A model generated the notes under the pieces. That model made no database searches. It saw nothing but the letters and a program-made list of their open reading frames with translations, and was not told the origin of the DNA. Of a stretch of 64,000 nucleotides of DNA, positions 101 to 17,698 are shown piece after piece. A program made the translations under genes and the position numbers. Each line of letters begins with the position of its first letter. Position 1 is the stretch's first letter. The stretch comes from Rhodococcus jostii NBRC 16295 (lineage in GTDB: Bacteria > Actinomycetota > Actinomycetes > Mycobacteriales > Mycobacteriaceae), in the NCBI RefSeq assembly GCF_001894825.1, contig NZ_BCWY01000002.1, forward strand, positions 186,001 to 250,000, given 5' to 3'.

Positions 101-115
101 TCTCGACCCGACTTG

Positions 116-129
116 ACCTCAGTTCAGGT
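116..129. promoter_or_regulatory. Candidate TetR operator upstream of the TetR gene
   Basis: ACCTCAGTTCAGGT is a degenerate copy of the palindrome found before each transcription unit of the left cluster. It lies 43 bases before the preferred GTG start at 173 and overlaps an in-frame TTG at 113, which argues against that TTG being the start. Autoregulation is inferred. Confidence 0.5.
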
Positions 130-172
130 AGTCTTACCGGTACCGACCCGACAACAGATGGATGGGGATCCC

Positions 173-796
173 GTGTCTGTAGAAGCCATGACGCTCCGCG
201 ATGGTCCGCGTTCCAAGCGCGGGCTCATCCTCACGGCCGCGATCGAACGCTTCGGGGAAGTGGGCTTCGAGCACACGAAGTGGGCGTCGATCGCCGACGA
301 GGTCGGTATCGGCCAGACGGCGCTCTACCACTACTTCGAGTCCAAGGCTCACTGCCTGCTGACCATCATGCGTCTCGAACTGGCGGAGTCCCTCGAGCGA
401 TTCACGGCCGCGATCGAGGGCGTCGACGATCCGGTGGAGGCGTTGGGTGCTGCCGTCACCAGTGCGCTGGAAGCGACCCCGCGGGACGCCCTGCAGCGTC
501 GCATCCTCCAGAGCCACATGGATCTGCTCGCCACCCCACGCCAGTCCGAGAAGGAAGAAGCCGAGCGCCAGACCTCACGTGCGCTGGTGAACTCGATCGA
601 AGAAGCGTGGTCTCTCCTCATTGCGAAGGGGATGGGCGCCGGAGTCTTCGCCGACGCCGATCCACGTCTGATGGCCCGGTTGGTCCTCGGACTCGTCGTC
701 AGCGTGTGGCGTTGGTACCGGCCCGATGGCGACATGAGTCTCGACCAGCTCAACCGACACGTCCGCGACACCACTCTGCGTATCGTCCGCGCATAA
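173..796 (+). CDS. TetR/AcrR-family regulator, probable local regulator of the catabolic cluster
   Basis: A 207-residue TetR-type repressor. An N-terminal helix-turn-helix is visible (SIADEVGIGQTALYHYF), followed by a helical ligand-binding domain without obvious identity to a characterised member. The start is ambiguous: TTG 113, ATG 158, GTG 173 and ATG 188 share the frame. GTG 173 is preferred because GATGGGGAT lies just upstream, while TTG 113 sits inside a candidate operator. The gene is followed by an operator (841-854) and the EthD/MBL/MDR operon. The same palindrome recurs before seven other promoters up to 17.6 kb, so this protein is the best candidate for controlling all of them. 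Its ligand is unknown; TetR proteins in such clusters often sense a CoA thioester or pathway intermediate. Confidence 0.85.
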   Translation: MSVEAMTLRDGPRSKRGLILTAAIERFGEVGFEHTKWASIADEVGIGQTALYHYFESKAHCLLTIMRLELAESLERFTAAIEGVDDPVEALGAAVTSALEATPRDALQRRILQSHMDLLATPRQSEKEEAERQTSRALVNSIEEAWSLLIAKGMGAGVFADADPRLMARLVLGLVVSVWRWYRPDGDMSLDQLNRHVRDTTLRIVRA

Positions 797-840
797 CGCG
801 CGGCGTTCGTGGAGTGGCTTCCGCGCGCGCTCACTAATTG

Positions 841-854
841 AACTTAATTCAGGT
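841..854. promoter_or_regulatory. Candidate TetR operator before the EthD-MBL-MDR operon
   Basis: AACTTAATTCAGGT, flanked by TTG on the left, matches the cluster palindrome (half-sites AACTGA and TCAGTT around 2 bases). It lies 18 bases before the ATG at 872, where a bound repressor would block transcription. Confidence 0.6.
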
Positions 855-871
855 CAGTATTGGAGTGATGA

Positions 872-1207
872 ATGTACAACTTGATCGTCTTGGCCGCCCG
901 TCCCCACGACTGGAGCCACGAGCAGTTCATCGAGTGGTGGCGCGGGGAACATGCCGACGTGACCTATCCGCTCCCCGGCCTGCGGCGATGGCAGCACACC
1001 GAAGTGCTCGACGCGATGGACGACAGGTCCCGGGAATGGGACGGCGTGTCGATCCTGAGCTTCGACTCCCGCGAGGACCTCGATGCCGCGCTCGCCAGCC
1101 CGCAGTGGCAAGCAGCGGTGGACAACGTCGGCCAGATGCGCGGAAAGCGCATCCTCGTCATGGGCGAGGAGAAAACGATGGTCGAAGTGGACAGCGGCAC
1201 ATCATGA
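872..1207 (+). CDS. EthD-like small protein
   Basis: A 111-residue protein beginning MYNLIVLAARPHDWSHEQF, typical of the EthD/dimeric alpha-beta-barrel fold, with the W-x3-H pattern (WWRGEHADV) common in EthD proteins. ATG 872 follows GGAG. The last four bases (ATGA, 1204-1207) overlap the next gene, so translation is probably coupled. EthD family members are small accessory or catalytic proteins in oxidative degradation clusters (ether, polyketide and aromatic pathways). The precise reaction here cannot be deduced. It heads a three-gene unit behind a candidate TetR operator. Confidence 0.75.
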   Translation: MYNLIVLAARPHDWSHEQFIEWWRGEHADVTYPLPGLRRWQHTEVLDAMDDRSREWDGVSILSFDSREDLDAALASPQWQAAVDNVGQMRGKRILVMGEEKTMVEVDSGTS

Positions 1208-2220
1208 GGGCCCGGTGGATGGAGCCGGGCTGCTACGAGGTGGCGCCCGGCGTGCACCGAGTGCCGCTCCAGATGCCTGCCGACGGTCTCGGAGCGGTGA
1301 ACGTCTACGCTCTCGAGACTCCGGACGGCCTGGCCCTCGTCGACGGTGGCTGGCGAGTCGACACGACCTTCGGGGAGATGGAACGCGCACTACGCCGGAT
1401 CGGTCACGGCACCGAGCAGATTCACGACATCTACGTCACCCACGTGCACCGCGATCACTACACGTTCGCCGTCGAACTCCGCCGCCGTCACGGTTCACGC
1501 GTCCATCTCGGTGTCGCCGAGGCGGACGGATTGGCGGCTGTCGGTGCACTCGGCAGCAACGTCCCGACGAATTCGCTCCACGAACTCCGCCGCGCCGGAG
1601 CCCCCGTCCTGGCCGACACCGTCGAGGCGCTGACCGCCGCGGAACCGTTCTACCCCTCGGACTGGGAAAAGCCCGACCACTGGCTCGCCGCGGGTCCGCT
1701 CCGGATCGGGCAGCACGCTGTCGATGTCGTGCACACGCCGGGCCATACCAAGGGGCACATGGTCTTTCATGATACGCAGCGCGGACTGCTCTTCAGCGGA
1801 GACCACGTACTGCCCTCGATCACCCCGTCGATCGGCTTCGAACTCGGTGAGTGGGACCTGCCCTTGGGGCGCTATCTCGACTCACTGTCCGGATTGCTCG
1901 ACCGCCCCGATTCGCAACTCCTGCCGGCACACGGAGATCCGACGCCGAGCGTTCACGTTCGCGTCGAAGAGCTTCTCGTGCATCATGACCGGCGATTCGC
2001 CGCCATGCGCGACGCCCTGGCCACGCTGGGACCGGTCACTGCGTCGGCCGTTGCGGAGGCCATCCCGTGGACCCGTCGCGAACGGCCGTTCGCCACGCTG
2101 GACCCGTTCAACCGGATGATCGCCACCTGTGAGACGCTCGCGCACCTCGACACCTTGGTCGACCGCGGCCAGATCACGGTCCGGAGCCGAGGCGACCGCG
2201 ACGTCTTCGCCGTTGCCTGA
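1204..2220 (+). CDS. Metallo-beta-lactamase-fold hydrolase
   Basis: A 338-residue protein of the MBL superfamily. The metal-binding motif THVHRDH (H-x-H-x-D-H) is near residue 80, followed by HTPGHTKGH, SGDHVLP and a late LPAHGDP, the usual four metal-ligand segments of a dinuclear zinc enzyme. The C-terminal part carries a helical region typical of the longer MBL hydrolases. The start is the ATG overlapping the EthD stop; a much longer upstream extension of the frame runs through the EthD gene and is rejected. The family hydrolyses thioesters, lactones or other esters. In this cluster it could cleave a CoA thioester or lactone intermediate, which is inference from context. Confidence 0.85.
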   Translation: MRARWMEPGCYEVAPGVHRVPLQMPADGLGAVNVYALETPDGLALVDGGWRVDTTFGEMERALRRIGHGTEQIHDIYVTHVHRDHYTFAVELRRRHGSRVHLGVAEADGLAAVGALGSNVPTNSLHELRRAGAPVLADTVEALTAAEPFYPSDWEKPDHWLAAGPLRIGQHAVDVVHTPGHTKGHMVFHDTQRGLLFSGDHVLPSITPSIGFELGEWDLPLGRYLDSLSGLLDRPDSQLLPAHGDPTPSVHVRVEELLVHHDRRFAAMRDALATLGPVTASAVAEAIPWTRRERPFATLDPFNRMIATCETLAHLDTLVDRGQITVRSRGDRDVFAVA

Positions 2221-2288: not shown

Positions 2289-3320
2289 GTGCAGAGTCGT
2301 GAGCTGAAACTGGCACGCCATCCCCAGGGGAGGGTTCGGTCGGACGACTTCTCTCTCGACGTGGTGAGCGTTCCCGAGGGCTTGGGTCCCGGTGACATTC
2401 TCGTTCGCAACTCGTGGCTGTCGATCGACCCGTCCGTGAGGATGCGCCTCGGTCCCACCGGCCCCGCCGGCTACCTGCCCCCGTTCCGCATCGGGGAGAC
2501 GCTGACCGGGTTGGCCGTCGGCGAGGTGGTCCAGTCCCGTGCCCCCGGCTTCGAGCCGGGCGACATGGTGCTGCATATCAACGGCTTTCGTGAGTTCGCT
2601 GTGATCCGGCAGGACGGTGACACCCTGGCAGGGGCGGGCGGTGTGACACGACTCGACACGACCGAGCATTCGCCGCAGTCGTATCTCGGAGCACTGGGCA
2701 GCTCCGGGCTCACCGCCTATGTGGGGTTGCAGTGCATCGGTGAACTCACGGATGACGATGTCGTCTGGATCTCGTCGGCGGCCGGAGCGGTCGGTAGCCT
2801 CGCTGCGCAGATTGCGCGGCTCAGAGGTCACTACGTGGTCGGCAGCACGGGATCCGCCGAGAAGGCCCGGTTCCTCTCGGAGGAACTGAAACTCGATGCC
2901 GTGTTCGATTACCACACGCCGGACCTGATCGGAGCTCTCGAAAGCGCGGCACCGAACGGCATCGATCTGTATTTCGACAACGTCGGCGGAGCGCATCTCG
3001 AGGCCGCGCTGTACCACCTCCGGCGAGGAGGCCGGGTTGCCATGGCGGGCGCCGTCGCGTCCTATGACGCGGAGACGGCGGCTGCAGGCCCGAACAATCT
3101 CTTTCAGATCGTGGCAAAGAACCTCACGGTGAGGGGGTTCCGGGCCGGTGCATACGACCATCTGCTTGGCGACATGCGGGCCGAGGTCGGGAACTACCTC
3201 CGCGACGGCCGGCTCGTTGCCGCGGAAACCGTGTTCGACGGCCTCGAGTCGGCACCGGATGCCATCGTCGCGATGCTGCGCGGCCGCACCGTGGGAAAGA
3301 CGCTGTGCCGTCTGCGGTGA
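2289..3320 (+). CDS. Zinc-independent MDR oxidoreductase (CurA/leukotriene B4 dehydrogenase-like)
   Basis: A 343-residue medium-chain reductase. The Rossmann segment near residue 160 (SSAAGAVGSLAAQIARLRG) and the LYFDNVGG motif are characteristic of the NADP-dependent CurA/PTGR group, which lacks zinc and reduces the C=C bond of alpha,beta-unsaturated ketones or aldehydes. The GTG start follows AAGGA at a proper distance. It lies 68 bases after the MBL gene with no operator between, so it is probably the third gene of that operon. An enone reductase here fits with the flavin reductase at 9916 and the SDR enzymes: the cluster seems to handle unsaturated or alicyclic carbonyl compounds. Substrate unproven. 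Confidence 0.85.
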   Translation: MQSRELKLARHPQGRVRSDDFSLDVVSVPEGLGPGDILVRNSWLSIDPSVRMRLGPTGPAGYLPPFRIGETLTGLAVGEVVQSRAPGFEPGDMVLHINGFREFAVIRQDGDTLAGAGGVTRLDTTEHSPQSYLGALGSSGLTAYVGLQCIGELTDDDVVWISSAAGAVGSLAAQIARLRGHYVVGSTGSAEKARFLSEELKLDAVFDYHTPDLIGALESAAPNGIDLYFDNVGGAHLEAALYHLRRGGRVAMAGAVASYDAETAAAGPNNLFQIVAKNLTVRGFRAGAYDHLLGDMRAEVGNYLRDGRLVAAETVFDGLESAPDAIVAMLRGRTVGKTLCRLR

Positions 3321-3387: not shown

Positions 3388-4152
3388 TCAGGCCGCCGTC
3401 CACCCACCGTCGGCGTAGATCTCGGAACCGGTGACGAAGCTGGAGTCGTCGCCGGCGAGGAAGGCGACCGCGGCCGCGATCTCCTCACCGCGTCCGAGTC
3501 GTCCCATCGGCGTGCCGGCCAGCATCTCGCGATGACGCTCGCTGCCCTCCCAGCGCTCGAGCAGCGGGGCGGTACCGATGAACCCCGGGTGTAGCGAATT
3601 GACCCGTACTCCCGCTTTCGCCCAGTGCAGGGCGGCGTTCTTGGTCATCGTGCGGACGGCGCCTTTGGCCGCCGCGTAGGCGACGCTGTTACCCAGACCG
3701 CCCACGGTGCCCAGGATCGAGCACATGTTCACGATCGAACCGCCGCCGCTGCGCTCGATCAGTGGTCCGGCATGTTTCATGCCCAGCCAAGTGCCGGTCT
3801 GGCCGACCCCGATCACGCGATCCCAGTGGGATCGGGTTTCGTCCTCGGCCGTGGCGACGCTGCCGATGGCCGCGTTGTTGACCAGGGCGTGCAATGCACC
3901 GAACGTCCCCTCGGTTGCTGCGACGACCGCCTCCCACTGTTCCTCGGACGAGACGTCCAAGGCGTGCGCGGCGTGTCGCTCGGGCCGGGCGACAGTGCGG
4001 AGCAGATCGCTACAGGCCGCCTCGTCGAGATCGGTCACGACGACGTGAGCGCCTTCGTCGGCGAGCCTGCGGACGATCTCGACGCCGATTCCACCGGTCG
4101 CACCCGTCAACAGGACGACCTTGTCGCGAAGTCGGTCAGGGCCGACAGTCAT
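3388..4152 (-). CDS. SDR-family NAD(P)-dependent oxidoreductase
   Basis: A 254-residue classical short-chain dehydrogenase. Visible motifs are the cofactor loop TGATGGIG, an acidic residue after beta-2 (VVTDLDEA, favouring NAD), NNAAIG, a catalytic Ser in NMCSILG and Y-x3-K in VAYAAAKGAV, ending with the usual DGGWT. It oxidises or reduces a hydroxyl/keto group. It is the last gene of the minus-strand unit headed by the ABC ATPase at 7064. The ATG start lies 45 bases after the permease stop. One of three SDRs in the cluster, suggesting several hydroxyl/keto interconversions in the pathway. Confidence 0.9.
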   Translation of the reverse strand: MTVGPDRLRDKVVLLTGATGGIGVEIVRRLADEGAHVVVTDLDEAACSDLLRTVARPERHAAHALDVSSEEQWEAVVAATEGTFGALHALVNNAAIGSVATAEDETRSHWDRVIGVGQTGTWLGMKHAGPLIERSGGGSIVNMCSILGTVGGLGNSVAYAAAKGAVRTMTKNAALHWAKAGVRVNSLHPGFIGTAPLLERWEGSERHREMLAGTPMGRLGRGEEIAAAVAFLAGDDSSFVTGSEIYADGGWTAA

Positions 4153-4197
4153 CTTGACTCCTTGTCACTCGTTCGGATCTGGCAGGGCAGATCGACA

Positions 4198-5901
4198 TCA
4201 CAGATTGCTCAGTACATTTCGGCCACCGACGAGCATCGCGATCACGACGCCGATACTGGTCACGGCCGTCATGAGCAGCGCCATCGCGGCCACCAGCGGG
4301 TAGGAACCGTTCTCCCACAGGTCGAACAGCAGCGTACCCATCACCTGGGTCGTGGCGGCGCGGACGAGCAGGGAGGCGGCGAACTCGTGGGTCAGCAGGA
4401 TGAACATCAGGGCGACGGCACTGAGCACGGTCGGCCTCATCAGTGGCAGGATCACCCGGACGTTGGTGACGAACGGGCTCGCGCCGCTCGTCGCCGACGC
4501 CTCGGCGTAGGTCTCCCCGAGCGACAGCATCGCCGTCATCTGCATGCGAGTGGAGAAGGGCACCATCAGCACGACGTAGACGAGGATGATGACCGCTTTG
4601 GTGCCGTAGAGGATCAGCGGAGGCTGAGTGTAGGTCAGCAGGAACCCGACACCGAAGATCACCGCTGGAATGCCCAGGGGGAGGGCTGTGATGACGTCAC
4701 CGACAGTCCCGAGGACCCGGTGTTTGCGACCTCGCACGAGCAGGGTGGCGGTGAGGTAGCCGATCGGCACGCAGATCACGACCGCCACGACGGAGGTGAG
4801 GAGACTCGTGTATACCGAGTCGACGATGCTCGCCGTCTGGAAGAGTGCCCGGAAGTTGTCGAGGGTGAACAGATTCCAGGACAGTGATTCCGACCAGTAC
4901 GGAGACACGGCCACGATGGCCAGTCCGATCAGCGGAATGACGAGTGCGAGAATCGCGTACACGGAGATCGCCACCGCGGCCCAGGCCGAGCGACCGGTGT
5001 TCGGTGCGAACGCTTTTCCCCCGTGGGTGACGAAGCGCGACTGATTGCCGAGAAGCATCTTCTGCGCGATCACGACGACGACTCCGAAGATGACGAGCGG
5101 TGAACCCGCGGCCGCGGCCGCCGCGAAGTCCGCAGGCGACTCGGACACACGCCGATACATTTCGGTGGTCAGCACCTTGACGCCGGTGTTCTGACCCAGC
5201 AGGAGCGGTCCGGTGAACTGGCCCAATCCGAGGAGCAGCGCAATTCCACCGCCGTACACGAGGGACGGGCGAAGTAGCGGAAGGACCACGCGAAAGAACA
5301 CTCCGAGCGTCGACGAACCGCTGATCTGTGCGGCCTCGAGGTGCTCGGAACTGATGTTCTGCATTCCCGCGCTGACGAAGAGGTAGACGAAGGAGGTGAG
5401 TCCGAAACCCGTGAGAATGATGATCCACGGCGTGCTGTAGACATCGACCGGTCCGGAATCCACGTGATTCCACCAGGGAAGTTTCCGCAGTAGTGCGTTC
5501 AGGTACCCGGGTCCCGGAGAGAGGAGGAATGCCCACCCGACGACATTGGCGACCGCGGGCATCACGATGGGCAGGATGGGGACGATCCGGAGGAAACTCA
5601 GCCGTCGTGGCAGCCTGGTGGCCGCGAACGCGAGCACCGTGCCCAGAACCATCGCGATAGCGAGTGAGGTGACGGCGAGGGCGATGGTCGTCCGGATGGT
5701 TTGACCGATGTCGTACCGCCCGTACTGGGCCTGATATCCGCGTGCGCCGTCTTCGAACGCCAGCGACTGCAGCCGGAAGAGCGGGAGCACGATGAGGTAT
5801 GCGAGAACCACCATCAGTGCGCCGTACCCGAGGCGGGTTCGCCACACCGTGCTGACGACGAGCGGACGCGCGTCGCGGTGTACGGCAACCGTAGCCATCA
5901 T
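4198..5901 (-). CDS. ABC transporter permease, iron/thiamine type, fused two-domain
   Basis: A 567-residue integral membrane protein with two homologous permease halves, each with about six membrane segments, as in SfuB/AfuB-type transporters. The permease (EAA-type) loops are visible in each half, for example LEAAQISGSSTLGVFFRVVL in the first and YAEASATSGASPFVTNVRVI in the second. Its ATG overlaps the stop of the ATPase gene (ATGA). Although the family is often annotated for ferric iron, many members import organic anions. The position in a catabolic regulon, with no iron box in front, favours an organic substrate; that is an inference. Confidence 0.9.
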   Translation of the reverse strand: MMATVAVHRDARPLVVSTVWRTRLGYGALMVVLAYLIVLPLFRLQSLAFEDGARGYQAQYGRYDIGQTIRTTIALAVTSLAIAMVLGTVLAFAATRLPRRLSFLRIVPILPIVMPAVANVVGWAFLLSPGPGYLNALLRKLPWWNHVDSGPVDVYSTPWIIILTGFGLTSFVYLFVSAGMQNISSEHLEAAQISGSSTLGVFFRVVLPLLRPSLVYGGGIALLLGLGQFTGPLLLGQNTGVKVLTTEMYRRVSESPADFAAAAAAGSPLVIFGVVVVIAQKMLLGNQSRFVTHGGKAFAPNTGRSAWAAVAISVYAILALVIPLIGLAIVAVSPYWSESLSWNLFTLDNFRALFQTASIVDSVYTSLLTSVVAVVICVPIGYLTATLLVRGRKHRVLGTVGDVITALPLGIPAVIFGVGFLLTYTQPPLILYGTKAVIILVYVVLMVPFSTRMQMTAMLSLGETYAEASATSGASPFVTNVRVILPLMRPTVLSAVALMFILLTHEFAASLLVRAATTQVMGTLLFDLWENGSYPLVAAMALLMTAVTSIGVVIAMLVGGRNVLSNL

Positions 5902-7064
5902 GCCTCCGATCGGGCGGTGGCCTGGGCGAGCACGGGAACCTGCAGATCGACGTGCCCGTCGGGGTGCGGGAACACCCGCAGTGCGGTGGGGGAGAAGCTG
6001 ACCACCAGGGGGGATCCCGTGGAGGCGCCACGCAACCAGGCCCCGTGTCGTGCCGCATCCGCGCGAAGGTACAACCGCTCGCCACCGGCGTTGACCGTCA
6101 CGTCGAAATGACGACCCCCGTACTCCGAGGTGACGAGTTCGCCCGTCAGGCCGACATCACCCGGGGCGACCTCGTCGAGCGAACGATGAAGTGCGAGGTC
6201 GTCGGGACGCATTCGTCCCAACGCCGCGTCGCCGCTGATGTGTCCGCCCTGGACGCCGGCCGCGCCGAGATCTACCGGAGTACCCGCTCGCGTCGTCCAA
6301 CCCTCGTGCCGCCGGACGAGTTCGAGTCGATTCGCCATGCCGATGAACGCGGCGACATAGTCGGAGGACGGGGACTCGTAGACCCGTTCCGGGGTGTCGT
6401 ACTGCTCGATCCTGCCCGCCTTCATGATGGCGAGTCGGTCGCCGAGCGCAAACGCCTCGGCCTGGTCATGGGTGACGAATACGGCCGTGAAGCCCAGACG
6501 TTGATGGAGTTGATGAATCTGGGACCGCACCTGATCGCGCAGTCGTGCGTCGAGATTGCTCAGGGGTTCGTCGAACAGCACCAGATCGGGTTGTGCGACC
6601 AATCCGCGCGCCACCGCGACTCGCTGTTGCTGCCCACCGCTGAGTTGGGAGGGATACCGGTCGAGCAGGGCTCCGCAGTCCACCATTCCTGCTGCGGTTT
6701 CGACCTGCCCGGCGGCGATGGCGCTCTTCATCCGTCGAACCTTCAGCGGGTATCGGATGTTCTCTCGCACCGTCATGTTGGGCCACAGTGCGTAGGACTG
6801 GAAGACCATGCCGATGTTGCGCTTGTAGGCCGGAACGTTGGCACGGGTCGACGCGTCGAAGACGGTGTGGTCCTTGAACGTGATCGACCCGCCCTCGGGT
6901 GTCTCGAGGCCGGCGATGCAGCGGAGCGTGGTCGTTTTCCCGCAACCGCTGGGGCCGAGCAGGACGAGGAATTCACCGTCCTCGATGTCGAGGTCGAGTT
7001 GATCGACGATGGTGTTGGACCCGAAGGTCTTGGTCAGGTTGGAAACCCTGAATTGCGATGTCAC
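5898..7064 (-). CDS. ABC transporter ATP-binding protein (Fe3+/polyamine type)
   Basis: A 388-residue ATPase. Walker A is GPSGCGKTT near residue 40, the Q-loop lies in VFQSYALWPNMTV, the signature is LSGGQQQRVAVARG, Walker B is LVLFDEPLSNLD and the switch is THDQAEA. After about residue 240 there is a C-terminal TOBE-type regulatory domain, as in PotA/FbpC/MalK-like ATPases. Start is GTG 7064. It is the first gene of the minus-strand unit ATPase-permease-SDR. A candidate TetR operator sits 78 bases upstream. The matching binding protein is at 7986-9023 in the neighbouring unit. Confidence 0.92.
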   Translation of the reverse strand: MTSQFRVSNLTKTFGSNTIVDQLDLDIEDGEFLVLLGPSGCGKTTTLRCIAGLETPEGGSITFKDHTVFDASTRANVPAYKRNIGMVFQSYALWPNMTVRENIRYPLKVRRMKSAIAAGQVETAAGMVDCGALLDRYPSQLSGGQQQRVAVARGLVAQPDLVLFDEPLSNLDARLRDQVRSQIHQLHQRLGFTAVFVTHDQAEAFALGDRLAIMKAGRIEQYDTPERVYESPSSDYVAAFIGMANRLELVRRHEGWTTRAGTPVDLGAAGVQGGHISGDAALGRMRPDDLALHRSLDEVAPGDVGLTGELVTSEYGGRHFDVTVNAGGERLYLRADAARHGAWLRGASTGSPLVVSFSPTALRVFPHPDGHVDLQVPVLAQATARSEA

Positions 7065-7141
7065 CTGGCACCTGCTTGGTTGCGAGTGGTTTGTGGGGAG
7101 AGCGTCCGTCGGGCTCCTGGCTTCGGAGCAGGACGGAGATA

Positions 7142-7155
7142 AAGTGAATTCAGTT
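7142..7155. promoter_or_regulatory. Candidate TetR operator before the ABC ATPase-permease-SDR unit
   Basis: AAGTGAATTCAGTT, followed by CA, fits the cluster palindrome with one mismatch in the left half. It is intergenic between the SDR gene (ends 7213) and the ATPase gene (starts 7064), marking a separate promoter for the transporter genes. Confidence 0.65.
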
Positions 7156-7212
7156 CATCTCACGATAGCCGGGGTCGGGGCGGCGGGCAAGAAGCTGTCG
7201 GGCCGGTGCGCG

Positions 7213-9806: not shown

Positions 9807-9825
9807 GATGCCCCTCACTAAATTG

Positions 9826-9839
9826 AACTGATATCAGTT
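9826..9839. promoter_or_regulatory. Candidate TetR operator (best copy), hydrolase side
   Basis: AACTGATATCAGTT is a perfect 14-bp palindrome and the strongest copy of the cluster motif. It lies 19 bases before the hydrolase ATG in the 109-bp divergent region shared with the flavin reductase gene. Confidence 0.75.
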
Positions 9840-9885
9840 TGAATCTAGGGAAATCGCCCTGTGATGTCAATCACCTGCTAGCGTG

Positions 9886-9899
9886 AAGTGAATCCAGTT
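9886..9899. promoter_or_regulatory. Candidate TetR operator, flavin reductase side
   Basis: AAGTGAATCCAGTT, followed by CA, is a second copy in the same divergent region. It sits 16 bases before the ATG at 9916 and just before that gene's AGGAGG ribosome binding site, so each divergent promoter has its own site. Confidence 0.65.
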
Positions 9900-9915
9900 C
9901 AGTTAGGAGGTCGGT

Positions 9916-11850
9916 ATGACGACTCCACGTGCAGCGCGGCCGCTGCAGCTCGGCACGCTTCGGTTGGAAAACCGTCTCGTCGGTACGCCTCACGCCTCGG
10001 GAGCCGTCGCCGGCGGTATCCCGTTGCCCGGCGACGCCGACTATTGGCGCCGGAGGGCGGCGGGCGGCGCGGCAATGCTCCTCGTCGGCGGCACGGTGGT
10101 GTCACCCAGCTCGACCAATCGCAACGGCAACATCACCGAGGCCTGGCGTCCCGAAGTCGTCGCCGGCCTGGAGGCTCGGGCACGAGCGATCACGGAGGAG
10201 GGAGCCGTCGCGGCATGCCAGCTGGTGCACCTCGGACGCGAAACGCTCGGCGCCGAGCTGTGGAGCCATCCCGTGGCGCCGGCCGCGGTCCGCTCTCCCC
10301 GCGAACCGACGCGGGCCCGAGTCCTCTCCCACACCGATGTCGACGGGATCGTCGACGCGTTTCGCACATCCGCCGTTCACGCGTGGTCCGCCGGATTCCA
10401 GGTCGTCGAACTGCATGCGGCCCACGGTTATCTGCTGGCGCAGTTCCTGTCACCGATAACCAACTTCGGCCGAGGCGCTGGGACGGTTGCGGGGCGTGTG
10501 CAGATCCTCGACCGCATTGCGTCTGCGGTTCGGGACGCCTGCCCCGGTGTCGTCCTCGGTGTTCGCGTCTCCGCCGAAGGGGACGACGAGGCCGGCCTGA
10601 GCATGGACGGGCTCTGTGAAGTACTTCCGCACCTCTCCGATTTCGACTATGTCAACGTGACGGTCGGGGTACGCACCACCTACGTCCGCGATATGGCCGT
10701 CGCCGACCCGCCGCTGCTCGGTGCGGTCGGACGGTTGCGCGCCGCCACGGTGACACCGCTGCTGGTGTCGCAGTCCTTCCGCACTGGTGCGTCCATCGAC
10801 ACCGCGCTGCAATCGGGAGCCGATCTCATCGGCATTGCGCGCCCGCTGATCGCGGATCCGGACTTTCCCCGGAAGATACTGACCGGCAGGGAGGCCTCGA
10901 TCCGCCCGTGTGTGTCGTGCAACGAGGACTGCCGCGCGTTCGACCCGGTGCTGCTCTGCTCGGTCAACCCCGAACTCGCACCGCCGGGTCATTCCGCACG
11001 TCCGGCGTATCCGCTGACCCTGGGCCCGACCCGCTCGTCGGGCCACCGGCGGCGGATCGCCGTCGTCGGTGCCGGCCCGGCCGGGCTCGAGTGCGCGATG
11101 CGGCTCGGATCCGAACACGCAGTCACGCTCTTCGAACGTCGAGACCGGATAGGTGGCCAGCTCGCGACAGCCGCGGACGCGCCACACCGCAGCGGCTGGC
11201 GCCGCCTCCTCGACTACTACTCGGACAACATGCCGGGGGTGGTACTCCGTCTGGGCCACACGGTCACCGCCACCGAACTGGAAGCCTTCGACGACGTAGT
11301 CCTGGCCGTCGGTGCCGTGGAGACGCTTCCTTCCGAAGCCGCAGGGGCGAAGTCCCTGCTCTCCTCGCAGGCGCTGGTCGGGGGAGGGGAGTCGCTGCGC
11401 GGCGCCAGGCACATCGTGGTGGTCGACGACGGATTCGGGCTCTGGCCCGCGGCGAGTTCGGTCGAAGCCGCGCTTGCCGCGGGCGCCGACCTCGTGACCG
11501 TCCTGACGCCTGCCGCCGCCTTCGCGTCCGGTCTCCCCGCGGAGAGTCGCGTGCAGTATCTGCGTCGGCTGTCGGGCAAACCGGTCGACGTGCGGGTGCT
11601 GTCGTCGCTCGTCGGGGTCACCGACGGCTCGGTCGAGTTCGAGAACACCCTGTCGGGGGAGAAGACGCGTCTCGACGTCGACCGCGTAGTCGTCGCCGGT
11701 GAGCGGCGCTCGCTCGACTGGTCGCTCCTCGCGCCGGAAGGCGCACGCGTGCACGTCATCGGCGACGCGCTCGTGCCACGCAAAGTCGCACACGCCGTCG
11801 CCGAGGGTCGTGCAGTCGCCTGTGAGTACTTGTTAACCGCGGGCGGTTAA
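9916..11850 (+). CDS. 2,4-dienoyl-CoA reductase-like FMN/4Fe-4S/FAD oxidoreductase (Old Yellow Enzyme group)
   Basis: A 644-residue enzyme. The N-terminal FMN TIM barrel shows HAAHGYLLAQFLSPITNFG. Cysteines at about residues 332, 335, 339 and 348 (CVSCNEDC then CSVNPE) match the cluster ligands of the family. A GAGPAG dinucleotide fold begins near residue 381. Family members (2,4-dienoyl-CoA reductase, trimethylamine dehydrogenase, bile-acid and aromatic-degradation reductases) reduce C=C bonds or oxidise amines. ATG 9916 follows a perfect AGGAGG. The final codons and the TAA stop lie inside the long palindrome at 11819-11864, so the last ten or so residues are encoded by the terminator arm. 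Expected role: reduction of an unsaturated carbonyl intermediate. Confidence 0.9.
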   Translation: MTTPRAARPLQLGTLRLENRLVGTPHASGAVAGGIPLPGDADYWRRRAAGGAAMLLVGGTVVSPSSTNRNGNITEAWRPEVVAGLEARARAITEEGAVAACQLVHLGRETLGAELWSHPVAPAAVRSPREPTRARVLSHTDVDGIVDAFRTSAVHAWSAGFQVVELHAAHGYLLAQFLSPITNFGRGAGTVAGRVQILDRIASAVRDACPGVVLGVRVSAEGDDEAGLSMDGLCEVLPHLSDFDYVNVTVGVRTTYVRDMAVADPPLLGAVGRLRAATVTPLLVSQSFRTGASIDTALQSGADLIGIARPLIADPDFPRKILTGREASIRPCVSCNEDCRAFDPVLLCSVNPELAPPGHSARPAYPLTLGPTRSSGHRRRIAVVGAGPAGLECAMRLGSEHAVTLFERRDRIGGQLATAADAPHRSGWRRLLDYYSDNMPGVVLRLGHTVTATELEAFDDVVLAVGAVETLPSEAAGAKSLLSSQALVGGGESLRGARHIVVVDDGFGLWPAASSVEAALAAGADLVTVLTPAAAFASGLPAESRVQYLRRLSGKPVDVRVLSSLVGVTDGSVEFENTLSGEKTRLDVDRVVVAGERRSLDWSLLAPEGARVHVIGDALVPRKVAHAVAEGRAVACEYLLTAGG

Positions 11851-11864: not shown

Positions 11865-11911
11865 GGGGTCGGTGTGGTTGCGCTCACACCCGAGGTCCTC
11901 TACGTTATTCG

Positions 11912-11925
11912 AACTGAAGTCAACT
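11912..11925. promoter_or_regulatory. Candidate TetR operator before the liv-type operon
   Basis: AACTGAAGTCAACT, preceded by TTCG and followed by CAA, matches the cluster palindrome with two mismatches in the right half. It lies 31 bases before the GTG start at 11956, which also argues against a start further upstream. Confidence 0.65.
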
Positions 11926-11955
11926 CAATTAGATCCGGCCGCCCTCGGAGGCATC

Positions 11956-12825
11956 GTGGACCAGTTGTTCATCACCTTGACCACCGGCATCGCCAACGGT
12001 GCCGTATACGGTCTCATCGGACTCGGATTGGTCATCATCTTCCGGTCCACCGACGTCATGAATTTCGCAATGGCGTCGTTGTCGACCCTCGCCATCTACG
12101 TTGCCCTCAGCGCGTACGGGGCCGGCGTGGGCATTGCGGTCGCCCTGGTCGTCGCGGTGGCCTTCGGGGCCCTCAGCGGAGTCGTGGTGCGGGAAGCGCT
12201 GATTCGTCCGCTCGGGCAAGGGAAGCTCTTCGCTGCGCTCGTCGTCACGATGGGGCTGTCGATCATTGTCGAGCATCTGATCGGCCACTACTGGGGAGAG
12301 CAGCCGCGACGATTCCCGCAACTCATCGACGGCACGATCTCGATCGGCAACTCGAACCTGATGCTGCAGGACGTCGCCACGATTCTCCTCGCCGCGCTCG
12401 CCGTGTCGGCCATTGCGTATCTGTTCACGCGGACGCCGGTGGGATCTGCGATGCGCGCGGTCGCCGAATCCGCTGAGACCGCGGAGATCATGGGCATCAA
12501 CGCGCACAAGGTTGCGCGGATCGCCTGGGCTCTCGGAATGGCGCTGGCGGTGCTGGGAGTCTTCCTGTACGCACCGAAAACCGGGGTTTCGCCGGTGATC
12601 CTAGCCCCAGTGTTGTTCCGTGCATTCGCAGGCATTCTGCTCGGTGGTCTCACAAGCATGTACGGCGCGGTCATCGGGGGGCTCATCATCGGTGTCCTGG
12701 ACAACCTCGCTGCGGCCTATATCTCCGCCAGCTTCCGTGACACGTTCGTCTTCTGCGTGGCGGTGCTCGTGCTGCTCATCCGTCCCCAGGGCATCTTCGG
12801 CCGCCAAACCTTCGAGAGGGTCTGA
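11956..12825 (+). CDS. Branched-chain amino acid-type ABC permease (LivH family)
   Basis: A 289-residue hydrophobic protein with about eight membrane segments and LivH features (NGAVYGLIGLGLVIIFRSTD near the start, EIMGINAHKV in the mid-protein loop, GGLTSMYGAVIGG near the end). GTG 11956 follows CGGAG; upstream in-frame starts would place the operator inside the gene. HAAT-type importers move branched-chain amino acids, urea, or in catabolic clusters aromatic and alicyclic acids. Its partners are the fused permease/ATPase chain 4 bases downstream and the binding protein at 16348-17508. Confidence 0.9.
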   Translation: MDQLFITLTTGIANGAVYGLIGLGLVIIFRSTDVMNFAMASLSTLAIYVALSAYGAGVGIAVALVVAVAFGALSGVVVREALIRPLGQGKLFAALVVTMGLSIIVEHLIGHYWGEQPRRFPQLIDGTISIGNSNLMLQDVATILLAALAVSAIAYLFTRTPVGSAMRAVAESAETAEIMGINAHKVARIAWALGMALAVLGVFLYAPKTGVSPVILAPVLFRAFAGILLGGLTSMYGAVIGGLIIGVLDNLAAAYISASFRDTFVFCVAVLVLLIRPQGIFGRQTFERV

Positions 12826-12829
12826 TTCC

Positions 12830-15379
12830 ATGATCACGAAAGACGTCTCGGCGCAGCGTGCCGGACGCTCCGCTCAGCGGCTGTACAGCGCCGGTCAGCT
12901 TCTCGGCGGACCGGCAGCGGCGATCCTGACGATAGTGGTGCTCTCTGCCGGACTCGTGCCGGGCTACCAGATATACACGGTCGGACTCGCCGCGGTGTAC
13001 GGACTGATCGTTCTCTCCATCTCGCTACTGGCCGGGTGGACGGGTATCTGGTCGATCGGGCATCCCGCAATGGTCGCGATCGGTGCCTATACGACCGCCT
13101 ACGGAAGCAGTAACGGTTGGGGACTGGCATTCACATCCGTTGTCGCTGTTGCATTGTGCGCAATGCTGGGAGGCTTCCTCGGATTCGCCGGCTCCCGTTT
13201 CTCCGTGCTGTACGTCGCGCTTCTCACCTTGGCGTTCACCTTGGTGACCCTCGAAATCATCGGTGCATGGAAGAGCGTCACCGGCGGTGACCAAGGAGTG
13301 CCGGTCGACACATTCGACTCCGCGTTCGGGGACCTCGTCCCGTCGTCCGACGCTGTCACCTACCTGGCCGTCGGAGTCCTCGGTCTCGCTGTCGCGGTGT
13401 CGGTGTTCCTGCGCCGCACGACCATACGCATGCGCATGGTCGCGGCCAAGACACACCCACTGGCAGGCAGATCGATCGGCATCGCTCCCGAACTGCAATC
13501 GAGCCTCGGCTTCGCGATCAGTGCGGGTGTCGCGGGCCTGTCCGGCGTGCTACTCGCCTTGCTGTCGGGCTTCATCAGCCCGGAGGGCTTCTCGATGGTC
13601 TTCGCGGTCAACCTGATTGCGGCGACCGTCCTCGGCGGCACCGGCAGCGTGATCGGCGCCGTTCTCGGTGGTGCGTTCCTCGCATCCGCACCGACGCTGG
13701 CGTCGTCGCTGTCGATCGACCAGCCGTACCTGATCGGGGGTGTCCTGATTCTCACCCTGCTGTTTCTCGCCGATGGAATCGTCCCGACGGCCGGGCGGCT
13801 GTTGCACCGATTCGTCCCGGTCACCCGTGCACTCGGACGCCCCACGCTGTCCACCTCCCAACCCAGCCTTCTCGACCCTGCGGGATCAGGTACGAACATG
13901 CGGGCCGATACCGCAACGGCAGTCGTGCTGAAGACGGAGGCACTCGGTGTTCGATTCGGGGGTCTTCAGGCCGTGCACAACATCGATCTCCGCGTGGATG
14001 CAGGTGAGGTGCTTGCGATCATCGGGCCGAACGGCGCCGGCAAGACCACCTTCGTCAACGCCCTCTGTGGCCTGATCGGTGGCGGTGAACTCGCAGGAAC
14101 GATGGAGCTCGGTGGCCGGCCCCTGCACGGGGTGCGGGCGACTCGCCGACGCTCGCTCGGACTCGGCCGGACCTTTCAGCATGCCGAACTTTTCGCGGAA
14201 CTGACCGTTCTCGAAAATGTCAGTGTCGTCAACCGCTGGGGGCGCCGTGCCGATCGCGACACTGCGTTGCAGGTCCTCTCGAGTGTCGGATTGGCCGACC
14301 ACGTGCACCGGCTCCCCCGAGAACTGCCGTTCGGACTACAGAAGCGGGTCGATCTCGCCCGGGCGATCGCGGCGCTGGCCGACAACCCGCGATTGATCGT
14401 GCTCGACGAACCGTTCGGTGGCCTCGACGCCGATGAACGTCACACACTCGCCGACCACATCCGCCGGCTCTCGAATTCCGGTACCTCCGTAGTCATCATC
14501 GACCACGTCCTCGACGACCTGTTCTCCGTCGCAGATCGGGTGGTGGCGTTCGACTTCGGTGAGCTGATCGCCGATGGAACCCCGGACACCGTCCTGCAGA
14601 ACCGGCAGGTCCGCGACTCGTATCTCGGAAACATCGACACCACCCTGATCGCACCCGACATCGATCGAACGGCGCCGCCGTTGATCTCCGTGCGGGGGAT
14701 CGAACACCACTACGAGGGTGTGCACGCATTGTCTGGCATCGATCTCGACGTCCATGCCGGCGGAATCCTCGGCATCGTCGGTGCGAACGGCGCCGGCAAG
14801 AGCACTCTGGGGCGGATCCTGCACGGAGGTCTGCAGTCGACCGGCGGCACCCGGACGGTCAATGGCGCAGACACCCTGCGGCTCAGCCTGGTTCCCGAGG
14901 GGCGCGCCTTGTTCCGCACCCTGTCGGTGCGCGAGAACCTGGAGGTCGCGGCGTACGCCGCCGGAATCTCCGGCCGTACACTGCGAACTCGGCTCGACGG
15001 GCTGCAGCAGGGGCTCCCCGAACGGGTCCGCACGCGCATGGACGTACCGGCCGGCTCACTGTCCGGCGGCGAACAACAGCTTGTCGCCATCGCCCGGGCA
15101 CTGATGGCCGACCCCGAAGTCCTGATCCTCGACGAACCCGCGCTGGGACTGTCCCCGGCGATGGTCGACGAAGTCTATTCACAGGTGAATGCCCTGGCGC
15201 GTCGGGGCATAACGACCATCCTGCTCGACCAGTCACTCACCCGCGCGCTCGAATCCTGCAGCGAGGTGATCGTTCTGCGTCAAGGTGAGGCCGTCGCGCG
15301 CGGCAACAGCGGCACGCCGGGATTCAGTGAGACTGCCGAGGCGGCGTACTTCGGTACAGAGACCCCTGCTCGCATCTAG
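12830..15379 (+). CDS. Fused LivM permease, LivG ATPase and LivF ATPase in one chain
   Basis: An 849-residue continuous frame. Residues about 15-330 form a LivM-type permease (LLAGWTGIWSIGHPAMVAIG, later VLGGTGSVIGAVLGGAF). A linker follows, then a LivG-type ATPase with Walker A GPNGAGKTT near 398, a divergent signature region PFGLQKRVDLARA near 501 and Walker B LIVLDEPFGGLD. A LivF-type ATPase completes the chain with Walker A GANGAGKST near 650, signature LSGGEQQLVAIARAL near 743 and Walker B VLILDEPALGL. Normally these are three proteins. LivM-LivG fusions are known; all three domains in one polypeptide is less usual. The ATG is 4 bases after the LivH stop. No internal stop or frameshift was seen. 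Confidence 0.9.
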   Translation: MITKDVSAQRAGRSAQRLYSAGQLLGGPAAAILTIVVLSAGLVPGYQIYTVGLAAVYGLIVLSISLLAGWTGIWSIGHPAMVAIGAYTTAYGSSNGWGLAFTSVVAVALCAMLGGFLGFAGSRFSVLYVALLTLAFTLVTLEIIGAWKSVTGGDQGVPVDTFDSAFGDLVPSSDAVTYLAVGVLGLAVAVSVFLRRTTIRMRMVAAKTHPLAGRSIGIAPELQSSLGFAISAGVAGLSGVLLALLSGFISPEGFSMVFAVNLIAATVLGGTGSVIGAVLGGAFLASAPTLASSLSIDQPYLIGGVLILTLLFLADGIVPTAGRLLHRFVPVTRALGRPTLSTSQPSLLDPAGSGTNMRADTATAVVLKTEALGVRFGGLQAVHNIDLRVDAGEVLAIIGPNGAGKTTFVNALCGLIGGGELAGTMELGGRPLHGVRATRRRSLGLGRTFQHAELFAELTVLENVSVVNRWGRRADRDTALQVLSSVGLADHVHRLPRELPFGLQKRVDLARAIAALADNPRLIVLDEPFGGLDADERHTLADHIRRLSNSGTSVVIIDHVLDDLFSVADRVVAFDFGELIADGTPDTVLQNRQVRDSYLGNIDTTLIAPDIDRTAPPLISVRGIEHHYEGVHALSGIDLDVHAGGILGIVGANGAGKSTLGRILHGGLQSTGGTRTVNGADTLRLSLVPEGRALFRTLSVRENLEVAAYAAGISGRTLRTRLDGLQQGLPERVRTRMDVPAGSLSGGEQQLVAIARALMADPEVLILDEPALGLSPAMVDEVYSQVNALARRGITTILLDQSLTRALESCSEVIVLRQGEAVARGNSGTPGFSETAEAAYFGTETPARI

Positions 15380-15468: not shown

Positions 15469-16272
15469 ATGAAAATGTCTCGGACAGCTGCGCAAGGCAG
15501 ATTCGAGGGCGCGGTCGCCCTGGTAACGGGAGGCGGATCAGGAATCGGAGCGGCAGTCGTCGCGCAACTCGTCGATGAGGGAGCTGCCCGCGTCTACGTG
15601 GCCGACATCGTGGTCGAGACAGTGCGCCGGCGGTGCGGGGACGACCCCACGACGATCGCACAGGGCGTCGACGTCTCGGACCCGAAGGCCGTCGATGCTG
15701 TCATGGCGGCGGTCCTCGCCGCCGAGGGGCGGCTCGACGTCGTCGTGCACGCCGCCGGCGTGGACGACCCGGAGTCCAAGAAGATCATCACGGACGCGAC
15801 TGCCGCGGGCACCCCGATCGACCTGACGGCGAACCTCACCGACGCGCAATGGCGCCGAGTGATGTCGGTCAATCTGGACGGCACTTTTCACGTGGTGCGC
15901 TCCGCAGTGCGGGTAATGAAGCCGAAAGGCGGCGCGATCGTCGTGATCGGCTCGTCCTCGGCATTCGATACCTTGACGGGATACCCGCACTACGCGGCGT
16001 CGAAAGCAGCCGTCCATGCCTTCTGTCAGGCCGTCGCCAAGGAGGTGGTGGCGTTCGGAATCCGACTCAACCTTGTCGCTCCCGGCCCGACCGAGACCGG
16101 CATGGCCTCTCGCACACCGGAAGAACTCAAAGTGCAGTGGGTCAACAACACACCGGTGCCGTATGCGACACCGGACGAGATCGCGGACAACGTGCTGTTC
16201 CTCGCTTCGGAACAGGCCAGAAACGTAGTGGGCGCGGTGCTGCTCAGCAACCGTGGACGATTCACCGTCTGA
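15469..16272 (+). CDS. SDR-family NAD(P)-dependent oxidoreductase
   Basis: A 267-residue short-chain dehydrogenase with TGGGSGIG, VADI after beta-2, HAAGVD in place of the usual NNAG, GSSSAF and Y-x3-K in YPHYAASKAAV. The C-terminus is atypical (LLSNRGRFTV rather than DGG). A ~10-residue insertion after HAAGVD also sets it apart from the other two cluster SDRs. GGAG lies shortly before the ATG. It follows the fused transporter gene by 89 bases with no operator between, so it probably shares that transcript. It likely oxidises a hydroxy intermediate; the substrate is unknown. Confidence 0.88.
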   Translation: MKMSRTAAQGRFEGAVALVTGGGSGIGAAVVAQLVDEGAARVYVADIVVETVRRRCGDDPTTIAQGVDVSDPKAVDAVMAAVLAAEGRLDVVVHAAGVDDPESKKIITDATAAGTPIDLTANLTDAQWRRVMSVNLDGTFHVVRSAVRVMKPKGGAIVVIGSSSAFDTLTGYPHYAASKAAVHAFCQAVAKEVVAFGIRLNLVAPGPTETGMASRTPEELKVQWVNNTPVPYATPDEIADNVLFLASEQARNVVGAVLLSNRGRFTV

Positions 16273-16281: not shown

Positions 16282-16322
16282 CGAGCGCATCCAGGTTGGA
16301 CTTGCCGACCTGGATGCGCTCG
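16282..16322. terminator. Terminator hairpin between SDR and binding protein genes
   Basis: Perfect 15-bp arms (16282-16296 and 16308-16322) around an 11-base loop between convergent genes. Confidence 0.75.
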
Positions 16323-16351
16323 AGTGTTACTGGATGCGCTCGAGGTGTTAC
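16311..16351. repeat. 20/21-bp tandem duplication at the end of the binding protein gene
   Basis: TGGATGCGCTCGAGTGTTAC (16311-16330) is followed directly by the same sequence with one extra G (16331-16351). The first copy shares the right arm of the terminator; the second carries the stop codon of the minus-strand binding protein gene (TAA at 16350-16348). Confidence 0.8.
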
Positions 16352-17508
16352 TGCGGTGACACGAAGTCACCGATGGGGACGAATTTGCCGCCCTCGACCT
16401 GGACGCGGACCACGCTGTCGGTGCCGAGGTGGTCGTCCGCGCTGAACGTGAGCGGAGGCATCACGCCGGTGTCGAGGGTGCCGCTCGTGATTATCGCGTC
16501 GGTGACGGACTCGGACGTGATCTCGCCGTCGATACTCTCGAGGATCTGAGCGAACGCTTTCGCCGAGCCATAGGTTGCCAGCGAGTAGAAATCGGGCTTC
16601 TCGCCCGGCTTGTACTTCGCCAGTGCCTGCCGGTACTCCTCGACCTCCGGGTTGTCGGCGGTGGGCGGCAGTGTCAGCGACACGGCGCGGAATCCTTCCG
16701 CGTTCGCGCCTGCGAGATCGAGAAGGCTGTTACCGACCGTCGGGGAGTAGCCATAGCTGGGGATCTTGACACCCTGCAGGGCCGTCTCGTTGAGGTAGGC
16801 GGCGGCCTCCTGGATCGGCAGGATCGTCAGGACCGCGTCGGGTGCAGCCGAACGGATCTGGGACACGAACGGGCTGTAGTCGGTGGTACCGAGCTTGACC
16901 TCCACCGTCGAGACCTCCGCCCCGGCCTTCTCGAGTTCGGTCGTGGCGACTGCGCCCACATTCACGAACGCGGCCGGATCGTTGCGGATGATCGTGACCT
17001 TCTTGGCTCCCTCGTCGAGGGCCCACTGCGCGGCGGCGCGCGCCTGGTTCTCGTAGAGCGTCTGGCTGCCGAACAGCCCGTCCCGCGGCGGGTCGTACCA
17101 GGCGGTGGAGCCGCCGTAGGTCCCGAAGACCGGGATCTGGTTCTGTTCGAGGACGAACGGGAACGTCGCCTCCGTGGTTGCGGTGCCGTTGGCGCCGACG
17201 ATCGCGACAACGCGGTCGCGTGAGACCAGCTGTCGCGCCACCTGAATCGTCTGCTGCGGGTCGAATGCGTTGTCGACCGGAGTCCACTCGACGGGTCGAC
17301 CGTGGATCCCCCCTGCGTCGTTGAGCTGATCGAAGAACGCTTGGGTACCGGCCTCCTGAGGAAGACCCCCCGACGCCTGCGGGCCCGAAAGGGGAAGCCA
17401 GGCGCCGAGTTTGATCGGGCCGCCCGCATCGCCGTCGCCGGCTTGCGTTCCGCAGGCTGTCAAGGTCGTGGCGAGGACCACGCCGACCGTGAGAAGAATT
17501 TTCCGCAC
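16348..17508 (-). CDS. Branched-chain amino acid-type ABC substrate-binding lipoprotein (LivK family)
   Basis: A 386-residue lipoprotein with a clear signal peptide ending in the lipobox LTAC near residue 19. The mature part has the type I periplasmic-binding start IKLGAWLPLSGPQASGGLP, a mid-protein AIVGANGTATTEATFPF and DPAAFVNVGAVA, as in HAAT-family binding proteins. GTG 17508 is chosen because AGGAG lies five bases upstream. It is transcribed alone, facing away from the FAD dehydrogenase gene, and should supply the LivH/LivMGF importer. In catabolic clusters such proteins often bind aromatic or other carboxylic acids. The ligand is not predictable from sequence. Confidence 0.9.
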   Translation of the reverse strand: MRKILLTVGVVLATTLTACGTQAGDGDAGGPIKLGAWLPLSGPQASGGLPQEAGTQAFFDQLNDAGGIHGRPVEWTPVDNAFDPQQTIQVARQLVSRDRVVAIVGANGTATTEATFPFVLEQNQIPVFGTYGGSTAWYDPPRDGLFGSQTLYENQARAAAQWALDEGAKKVTIIRNDPAAFVNVGAVATTELEKAGAEVSTVEVKLGTTDYSPFVSQIRSAAPDAVLTILPIQEAAAYLNETALQGVKIPSYGYSPTVGNSLLDLAGANAEGFRAVSLTLPPTADNPEVEEYRQALAKYKPGEKPDFYSLATYGSAKAFAQILESIDGEITSESVTDAIITSGTLDTGVMPPLTFSADDHLGTDSVVRVQVEGGKFVPIGDFVSPQ

Positions 17509-17520
17509 ATCCACTCCTTG

Positions 17521-17534
17521 AATCGAGTTCAGTT
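17521..17534. promoter_or_regulatory. Candidate TetR operator before the LivK gene
   Basis: AATCGAGTTCAGTT within TTGAATCGAGTTCAGTTCAA, a 20-bp near-palindrome with two mismatches to the cluster consensus. It sits 13 bases upstream of the GTG start. Confidence 0.7.
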
Positions 17535-17624
17535 CAATGAATGCTATAGGGGAACGGTTGTGTCGGCAATCACATTCCTCGGGCGATGTGACGACTCGAG
17601 GAAACCGGCCCGGGGCATTACTTG

Positions 17625-17638
17625 AACTGACTTCAGTT
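17625..17638. promoter_or_regulatory. Candidate TetR operator before the FAD dehydrogenase gene
   Basis: AACTGACTTCAGTT, preceded by TTG, has two perfect 6-bp half-sites around CT. It lies 61 bases before the ATG at 17699. With the 17521 copy it serves the divergent pair. Confidence 0.72.
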
Positions 17639-17698
17639 GAGGGGATACGGTGTCTCCGGTAGTGCAATCTGCTTGTCGAAGGGGATGAGGAGCACCAG

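Follow-up and report, generated by a model that had tools for sequence, protein, structure and literature searches.

Which regulator controls the run of catabolic genes that opens a 64,000-nt stretch of the Rhodococcus jostii NBRC 16295 genome (the window, G000:C2:186001-250000; genome of 9.73 Mb in 286 contigs), and through which DNA element would it act? The run begins with a gene for a TetR-family protein (173..796), and a preliminary description of this DNA had taken eight copies of one palindrome to be the operators of that protein and to mark one local regulon of 17 kb. Our analysis supports a single local regulon with this TetR protein as its regulator, while the limitation to 17 kb was not borne out. 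What the sequence shows directly is an operator that is conserved and linked to the TetR gene, together with the gene content, and TetR 173-796 is very probably the repressor of a catabolic regulon, acting via a 24-bp operator at each promoter.

Operators in the window

All eight sites were recovered, and they lie before all eight transcription units, as had been claimed, with one operator for each direction in the divergent regions. With operon limits inferred from gaps of at most 90 bp, the units are TetR; EthD-MBL-CurA (MBL, metallo-beta-lactamase); PotA-PotBC-SDR3 (SDR, short-chain dehydrogenase/reductase); ABH-SBP-SDR4 (alpha/beta hydrolase, solute-binding protein); OYE (old yellow enzyme); LivH-LivMGF-SDR5; LivK; and the FAD dehydrogenase. 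Scores are those of the second matrix described below.

Operator 1, 106..129: 25.5 bits; 43 bp upstream of the TetR start, putative autoregulation
Operator 2, 836..859: 33.1 bits; before the EthD-MBL-CurA operon
Operator 3, 7137..7160: 30.8 bits; before the PotA-PotBC-SDR3 operon
Operator 4, 9821..9844: 30.5 bits; before the ABH-SBP-SDR4 operon
Operator 5, 9881..9904: 26.8 bits; before the OYE gene
Operator 6, 11907..11930: 29.7 bits; before the Liv operon
Operator 7, 17516..17539: 26.2 bits; before livK
Operator 8, 17620..17643: 26.0 bits; before the FAD dehydrogenase gene

The operator spans 24 bp with the consensus AACTGAACTGAATTCAGTTCAGTT, in which the pentamer AACTG occurs twice per arm. 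Seven of the core positions given earlier fell within 1 base of the best register and the one at 116 missed it by about 5 bp, an offset consistent with the 5-bp periodicity of the motif. All eight site centres are non-coding, non-coding sequence making up 1135 of 17599 bases; operator 6 (11907) counts as such because the livH start was taken as 11956 and not as 11872. The 20-mer of the preliminary description, allowed up to 3 mismatches, matched 9 times at 5 separate places, shuffled sequence giving an expectation of 0.01. Having reached 5 of the 8 places only at 3 mismatches, the plain pattern was given up for a matrix, which the more divergent sites at 116, 7142 and 9886 required.

Our first matrix was built from the eight sites of the window plus three from upstream and is circular for the window, and the second comprised 141 distinct sites from other genomes (77 loci, L010-L086). 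The latter ranked exactly the eight sites at the top (25.5-33.1 bits), the ninth-best window position scoring 7.0 bits, in agreement with the claim that no comparable copy exists elsewhere in the window. Its sites had been picked with the window-derived first matrix, so it is not fully independent; this circle is broken by a search of 151 segments (up to 130 bp) flanking the TetR orthologues of L010-L086, which used no window sequence and counted palindromes of two 7-bp half-sites at gaps of 0-4 with up to 3 mismatches. GAACTGA ranked first of 16,384 half-sites (gap 2, 62 segments; median half-site 0), and the best-ranked words for gaps of 0, 1 and 3 (58, 62 and 46 segments) were versions or shifts of the same sequence.

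Association of the motif with the TetR gene

The window TetR combines a TetR_N helix-turn-helix (HTH) with an all-helical ligand domain, and palindromic sites, as expected of its family, occur at the putative target promoters, those of its own gene and seven other units. It is 94-96% identical to the TetR of Rhodococcus opacus, R. koreensis and R. wratislaviensis. Comparison was with 80 loci fetched via TetR, the best among 139 having a TetR relative (53-96% identity). At least one site of 17 bits was present in 76/80 loci, with 239 sites in total, whereas 40 column-permuted palindromic matrices gave a mean of 0.5 sites and a maximum of 4 over the same loci. A site lay within 250 bp of the TetR gene in 67/80 loci and immediately before the TetR orthologue in 33/80; only 2 of the 239 sites were inside recognised genes, and 39 were not beside any gene of the query set. 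Gene order was kept in most Rhodococcus, Nocardia and Williamsia loci (exceptions include L034, L048 and L052) and differed in Gordonia, Nocardioides, Streptomyces and Pseudonocardia, where the motif was nevertheless present.

In 121 genomes of the order, TetR (E<=1e-40) was found in three, and the same three were those with at least 5 motif matches (counts in the genome sets include both strands). Among 28 genomes of the genus, TetR was found in 10, all of them with at least 5 matches, and 16 of the 18 genomes lacking TetR had none, the exceptions being G135 with one place and G136 with two. With 74% completeness and cluster genes at 91-97% identity, G136 has probably lost TetR from the assembly only. 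Fisher values for the two genome-set comparisons were 5e-6 and 3.5e-6, uncorrected for relatedness. Beyond the set used for the matrix, a plasmid region of R. qingshengii (L095, NZ_CP089607.1, 595 kb) holds most of the cluster together with ten sites of at least 17 bits, and the cluster can therefore occupy different replicons.

Within the protein, residues 44-61 (end of helix 2, turn and recognition helix) were 99.9% identical to the window TetR in 47 aligned orthologues, drawn from 47 of the 80 loci, versus 57% for residues 62-207 of the same sequences. Other HTH matches in the genome were 32-45% identical to the window TetR. Co-occurrence across genomes, sites beside TetR orthologues and a fixed recognition helix together thus single out the window TetR as the candidate regulator.

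Extent of the regulon

Further sites lie on contig C2 from 11.2 to 9.9 kb before the window, at 174802 and 174874/174879 (overlapping) between divergent genes and at 176127 (35.1 bits) before an operon starting with an enoyl-CoA hydratase (ECH) gene, making three or four in all. The upstream operons encode an acyl-CoA dehydrogenase (ACAD_a), then ECH, an OB-fold protein, an SCP2-type thiolase, ACAD_b, an APH-family kinase and ACAD_c, followed by two SDRs, a zinc alcohol dehydrogenase and an acyl-CoA ligase, named from its R. qingshengii counterpart and ending at window position 100. The 127-aa product of the divergent gene matched no Pfam family. A second locus on contig C61 (L002 = G000:C61:15000-32000; 3872-10317) has three sites: one of 31 bits in front of another copy of the solute-binding protein gene (product 92.8% identical to that of window 7986-9023), one at L002 10293 preceding a thiolase-ECH-acyl-CoA synthetase operon, and one at L002 10868 facing no clear gene. 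This second locus, sites included, also occurs in genome G136.

The preliminary description had held an even scatter of the motif over the genome to speak against a local regulon; instead, the strong sites are concentrated. A scan with R1, a sequence-only model of 52 sites hand-picked among 75 listed of 153 distinct ones, very near relatives included, gave 22 matches at E<=10, corresponding to 11 places, 9 of them in C2:174870-203641 (28.8 kb), 2 on C61 and none outside; 150/621 candidates were scored, and 3 of 14 sites known from the matrix were missed (C2:195825, C2:174802 and C61:25867). Of the 26 places matched by the 16-mer GAACTGANNTCAGTTC at up to 2 mismatches, 11 fell within the C2 stretch, C61 accounted for 2, and the other 13 were scattered. 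Four of these 13 were rescored with the matrix (18.2 bits, 12.6 bits and two below 10); three of the four, on C17, C33 and C50, reached 12.6 bits or less and were dropped. These data support a regulon predicted to cover about 28.8 kb on C2 plus the second locus. Separately, the borderline 18.2-bit site on C36 (L005:6422 = G000:C36:57421) lies directly before an acyl-CoA dehydrogenase gene and may be a further target.

CRP/GlxR-type sites

The view of one operator per promoter holds for all eight units, but three promoter regions of the window additionally bear a CRP/GlxR-type palindrome, each with 1 mismatch to TGTGAN6TCACA.

9860..9875: TGTGATGTCAATCACC, between divergent operators 4 and 5
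11873..11888: TGTGGTTGCGCTCACA, upstream of operator 6
17559..17574: TGTGTCGGCAATCACA, between divergent operators 7 and 8

With at most 1 mismatch, this pattern was found 19 times within 90 bp of operators (0.41/kb) versus 7 times elsewhere (0.004/kb), and four scrambled palindromes gave 0-2 matches near operators. With two mismatches, 50 matches were near operators (1.08/kb versus 0.061/kb elsewhere; scrambled, 7-28 near). Many of the 19 matches represent orthologous promoters and therefore not 19 independent events; the 16 outside the window stem mostly from one divergent promoter region repeated in relatives. Among the matches listed, none with at most 1 mismatch was near the remaining window operators or the upstream ones. 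The genome encodes one strong CRP-type HTH (contig C90, 65.6 bits). For GlxR, a passage of PMC4254451 gives the consensus TGTGANNTANNTCACA. The predicted sites resemble GlxR/CRP-controlled promoters in their palindrome matches, here beside operators, and differ in that the central TA of the consensus is not kept.

Alternative explanations

Could the regulon be a KstR2-type steroid C/D-ring (HIP) regulon or its duplicate? In the part of PMC7807495 on which we draw, KstR2 is the TetR repressor of steroid C/D-ring catabolism with HIP-CoA as effector. The likeness extends to a TetR of similar fold (judged from a model), catabolic genes of acyl-CoA type and a likely CoA-thioester effector, whereas two ATP-binding cassette (ABC) importers, OYE and CurA-like reductases and an ACAD11-like pair belong to the present regulon. 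The HIP-CoA contacts of KstR2, which we take to be R162 and W166 (not found in print), align with L and V in the window TetR. On re-examination of the Foldseek matches, the top rows were tied, so that KstR2 as the first row is no family assignment; AibR (isovaleryl-CoA), Bacillus FadR (stearoyl-CoA), PvrA (CoA) and PfmR are near structural neighbours of the TetR model as well, at 18-30% identity. We regard a KstR2-type regulon as improbable. Two equivalog labels for the window TetR were discarded, FadR of Bacillus (NF053878; 45.1 bits, cut-off 200) and KstR (NCBIfam NF033703; 26.9 bits, cut-off 280).

Slightly less probable still is that the palindromes serve another, unlinked regulator and that the TetR gene merely co-travels with the cluster. 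Such a regulator would suit several observations that weigh against TetR 173-796. Four loci lack a site at the 17-bit threshold (L034, L046, L048 and L057), of which L057 (best 11.4 bits, near TetR) and L048 (nothing) have a TetR orthologue without a convincing site; L082 and L084 carry sites, of which none close to the TetR gene is convincing; and G135, lacking TetR, carries one strong site (29.6 bits, L106:8650) before a distant ECH gene. An unlinked regulator would, however, need an identical patchy distribution, and the motif stays with TetR despite changed neighbours in Gordonia, Streptomyces and Nocardioides. In L034 and L046, where the cluster is absent, the motif still accompanies TetR weakly, the locus-best position (15.4 and 14.8 bits, respectively) lying directly before the TetR gene. 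The recognition helix fixed among the orthologues argues in the same direction. That the palindromes are RNA-level leader stem-loops is scarcely credible, for although the sequences are inverted repeats, four of them 1-12 bp ahead of the nominal start codon, a definite AT-rich sequence is kept, not pairing alone, and divergent regions carry one palindrome for each direction.

Further points temper the case for TetR 173-796 as repressor. Nine more genomes of the order set without TetR carry 1-2 matches at E<=1, and the 16-mer at up to 3 mismatches gave 245 matches per strand versus 77 for the reversed control. The association is weakened by the retrieval of the 80 loci via TetR itself, by the small number of positives in the genome sets (10 and 3) and by the non-independence of relatives. 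TTGAC at -26 and TANNNT at -2 occur in 10% and 13% of 163 oriented sites, so that the placement of -35/-10 elements at the operators rests on 10-13% of sites. We infer binding, repression, ligand, substrate and CRP action from sequence, and the role as repressor rather than activator and the CoA-thioester ligand by analogy with the family.

Genes of the cluster

The genes of the window belonging to the regulon were assigned as follows; for ABH (9806), LivH (11956) and LivK (17508), we chose an in-frame start codon preceded by a Shine-Dalgarno-like sequence.

173..796, +: TetR-family protein (TetR_N + TetR_C_24; Pfam), proposed regulator; model pLDDT 93.3
872..1207, +: EthD-domain protein (Pfam; NCBIfam TIGR02118 above cut-off)
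1204..2220, +: MBL-fold hydrolase (Pfam Lactamase_B); 1204 is an in-frame start codon, putative start
2289..3320, +: CurA/LTB4DH-like double-bond reductase (Pfam; NCBIfam below cut-off)
3388..4152, -: SDR3, last in the Pot-type operon (Pfam)
4198..5901, -: fused two-domain permease, PotBC/PhnU2-like (Pfam BPD_transp_1, two stretches)
5898..7064, -: ABC ATPase, PotA/PhnT-like (Pfam, NCBIfam)
7213..7998, -: SDR4 (Pfam)
7986..9023, -: solute-binding protein (Pfam); 92.8% identical copy on contig C61 by tblastn
9111..9806, -: alpha/beta hydrolase, ABH (Pfam); start ATG 9806 after GAGGGG, open reading frame (ORF) opens at 9818
9916..11850, +: FadH/OYE-type FMN-FAD enoate reductase (Pfam; NCBIfam below cut-off)
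11956..12825, +: LivH-like permease (Pfam); start GTG 11956 after GGAGG (Shine-Dalgarno), ORF opens at 11872
12830..15379, +: LivM-LivG-LivF-like fused polypeptide, permease and two ATPases (Pfam); start uncertain
15469..16272, +: SDR5 (Pfam)
16348..17508, -: LivK-like periplasmic binding protein (Pfam Peripla_BP_6); GTG 17508 after AAGGAG, GTG 17514 possible
17699..19027, +: FAD_binding_2 dehydrogenase/reductase, flavocytochrome-c/KstD-like (Pfam; PDB sequence search)

Both importers contain fusions, with the Liv permease and two ATPases in one frame (12830-15379) and the Pot permease pair likewise (4198-5901). A mycofactocin label for the window OYE was rejected (327.7, cut-off 793.15). Outside the regulon, a gene of the Beta-lactamase2 family (class-A beta-lactamase-like; 19519-20604) stands beside purD without an operator.

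A candidate kinase/dehydrogenase pair and the pathway

Which substrate would such a regulon serve? Inside the regulon and outside the window, the APH-family kinase (L001:13733-14695) and ACAD_c (L001:14712-15914) form a pair at C2:179733-181914; the two adjoin in 58/58 loci in which the kinase was found and ACAD_c exceeded 55% identity. The first match of ACAD_c was 4hr3, a putative ACAD whose motif is similar (3e-132); ACAD11 came at 1e-123 and the next ACADs at 7e-39. The kinase (Pfam APH) matched 3dxp first (2.8e-22) and the ACAD11 kinase domain at 1.5e-17, and its HGD...N and DWE catalytic residues are retained in 63-64 of 65 relatives. Aligned to 8v3u, ACAD_c keeps the catalytic aspartate and the equivalents of R626 and R637 in 67/67 relatives (59 close, 8 distant), while the H634 position (HCMR motif) is Y in 58/59 close relatives and H in 8/8 distant ones. 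As reported in passages of PMC12440821 and PMC11342911, the mouse and lva-operon pairs phosphorylate 4-hydroxyacyl-CoA and remove the phosphate to yield 2-enoyl-CoA, and changing H634 to Ala or Leu is among the most disruptive substitutions in mouse ACAD11. With the aspartate, R626 and R637 kept and H634 replaced by Y, a related chemistry acting on a different substrate is probable.

The arrangement resembles the Pseudomonas putida lva operon (with LvaA as kinase and LvaC as ACAD) and animal ACAD10/11 in its adjacent APH-type kinase and ACAD11-like dehydrogenase, accompanied by an acyl-CoA ligase and SDRs. It differs from both in the Y for H634, many more genes, ACADs of heteromeric type and an SCP2-type thiolase with an OB-fold partner. 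One pathway compatible with TetR 173-796 as repressor, to which we give somewhat less than even credence, is degradation of 4-oxo/4-hydroxy carboxylates or gamma-lactones via 4-phosphoacyl-CoA, as for the lva operon and ACAD10/11. The ACAD11-type ACAD_c with its conserved aspartate, R626 and R637 and the adjacent APH kinase favour it, and OYE, the CurA-like reductase, SDRs and ligase suit an order from enone via ketone and alcohol to CoA thioester; yet H634, required in mouse ACAD11, is replaced in nearly all close relatives, and the two importers and the FAD enzyme point to no particular substrate. No oxygenase family was matched in the proteins scanned with Pfam (window, upstream region and C61), and the pathway may therefore start from an acid that is already oxidised when the ABC systems import it. 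We also weighed steroid, terpenoid and levulinate readings, with residue-level support for the 4-hydroxyacyl-CoA part alone; the pathway is offered as a lead. A fuller picture is put forward more tentatively: an undescribed actinobacterial pathway that would open bulky or cyclic 4-oxo/4-hydroxy acids via phosphorylated acyl-CoA with an ACAD11 variant bearing the conserved H634-to-Y change, under a cAMP-dependent CRP and a CoA-thioester-sensing TetR whose operator, with two pentamers per arm, might take up two dimers.

Proposed mechanism and significance

In the mechanism we propose, TetR dimers would bind the 24-bp operator, which would overlap the -10/transcription-start region of tetR and every cluster operon, and thereby block RNA polymerase, until a CoA thioester from the cluster's own acyl-CoA ligase, probably the ligand, releases TetR from the operator. 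The regulon would then yield two ABC importers, several SDRs, enone reductases, a beta-oxidation set and the probable 4-hydroxyacyl-CoA kinase/dephosphorylating dehydrogenase pair, and the OYE/ABH, Liv and LivK/FAD promoter regions would offer a CRP/GlxR-type site for cAMP-dependent activation.

TetR-controlled acyl-CoA catabolic regulons are known as a kind; the present regulon is new and unusually well defined by sequence. In titles and abstract openings of the open-licence literature we found nothing on the operator or regulon, the motif-string matches listed being to the short TTGAACTGA only. Our results provide a likely regulator, operator and set of targets for a pathway of Rhodococcus, Nocardia, Williamsia, Streptomyces, Pseudonocardia and others, and the regulon offers relatives of ACAD10/11 from soil bacteria in which the active site is naturally altered. 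The known operator allows direct screening for the inducer, which would name the substrate of some 28 genes.

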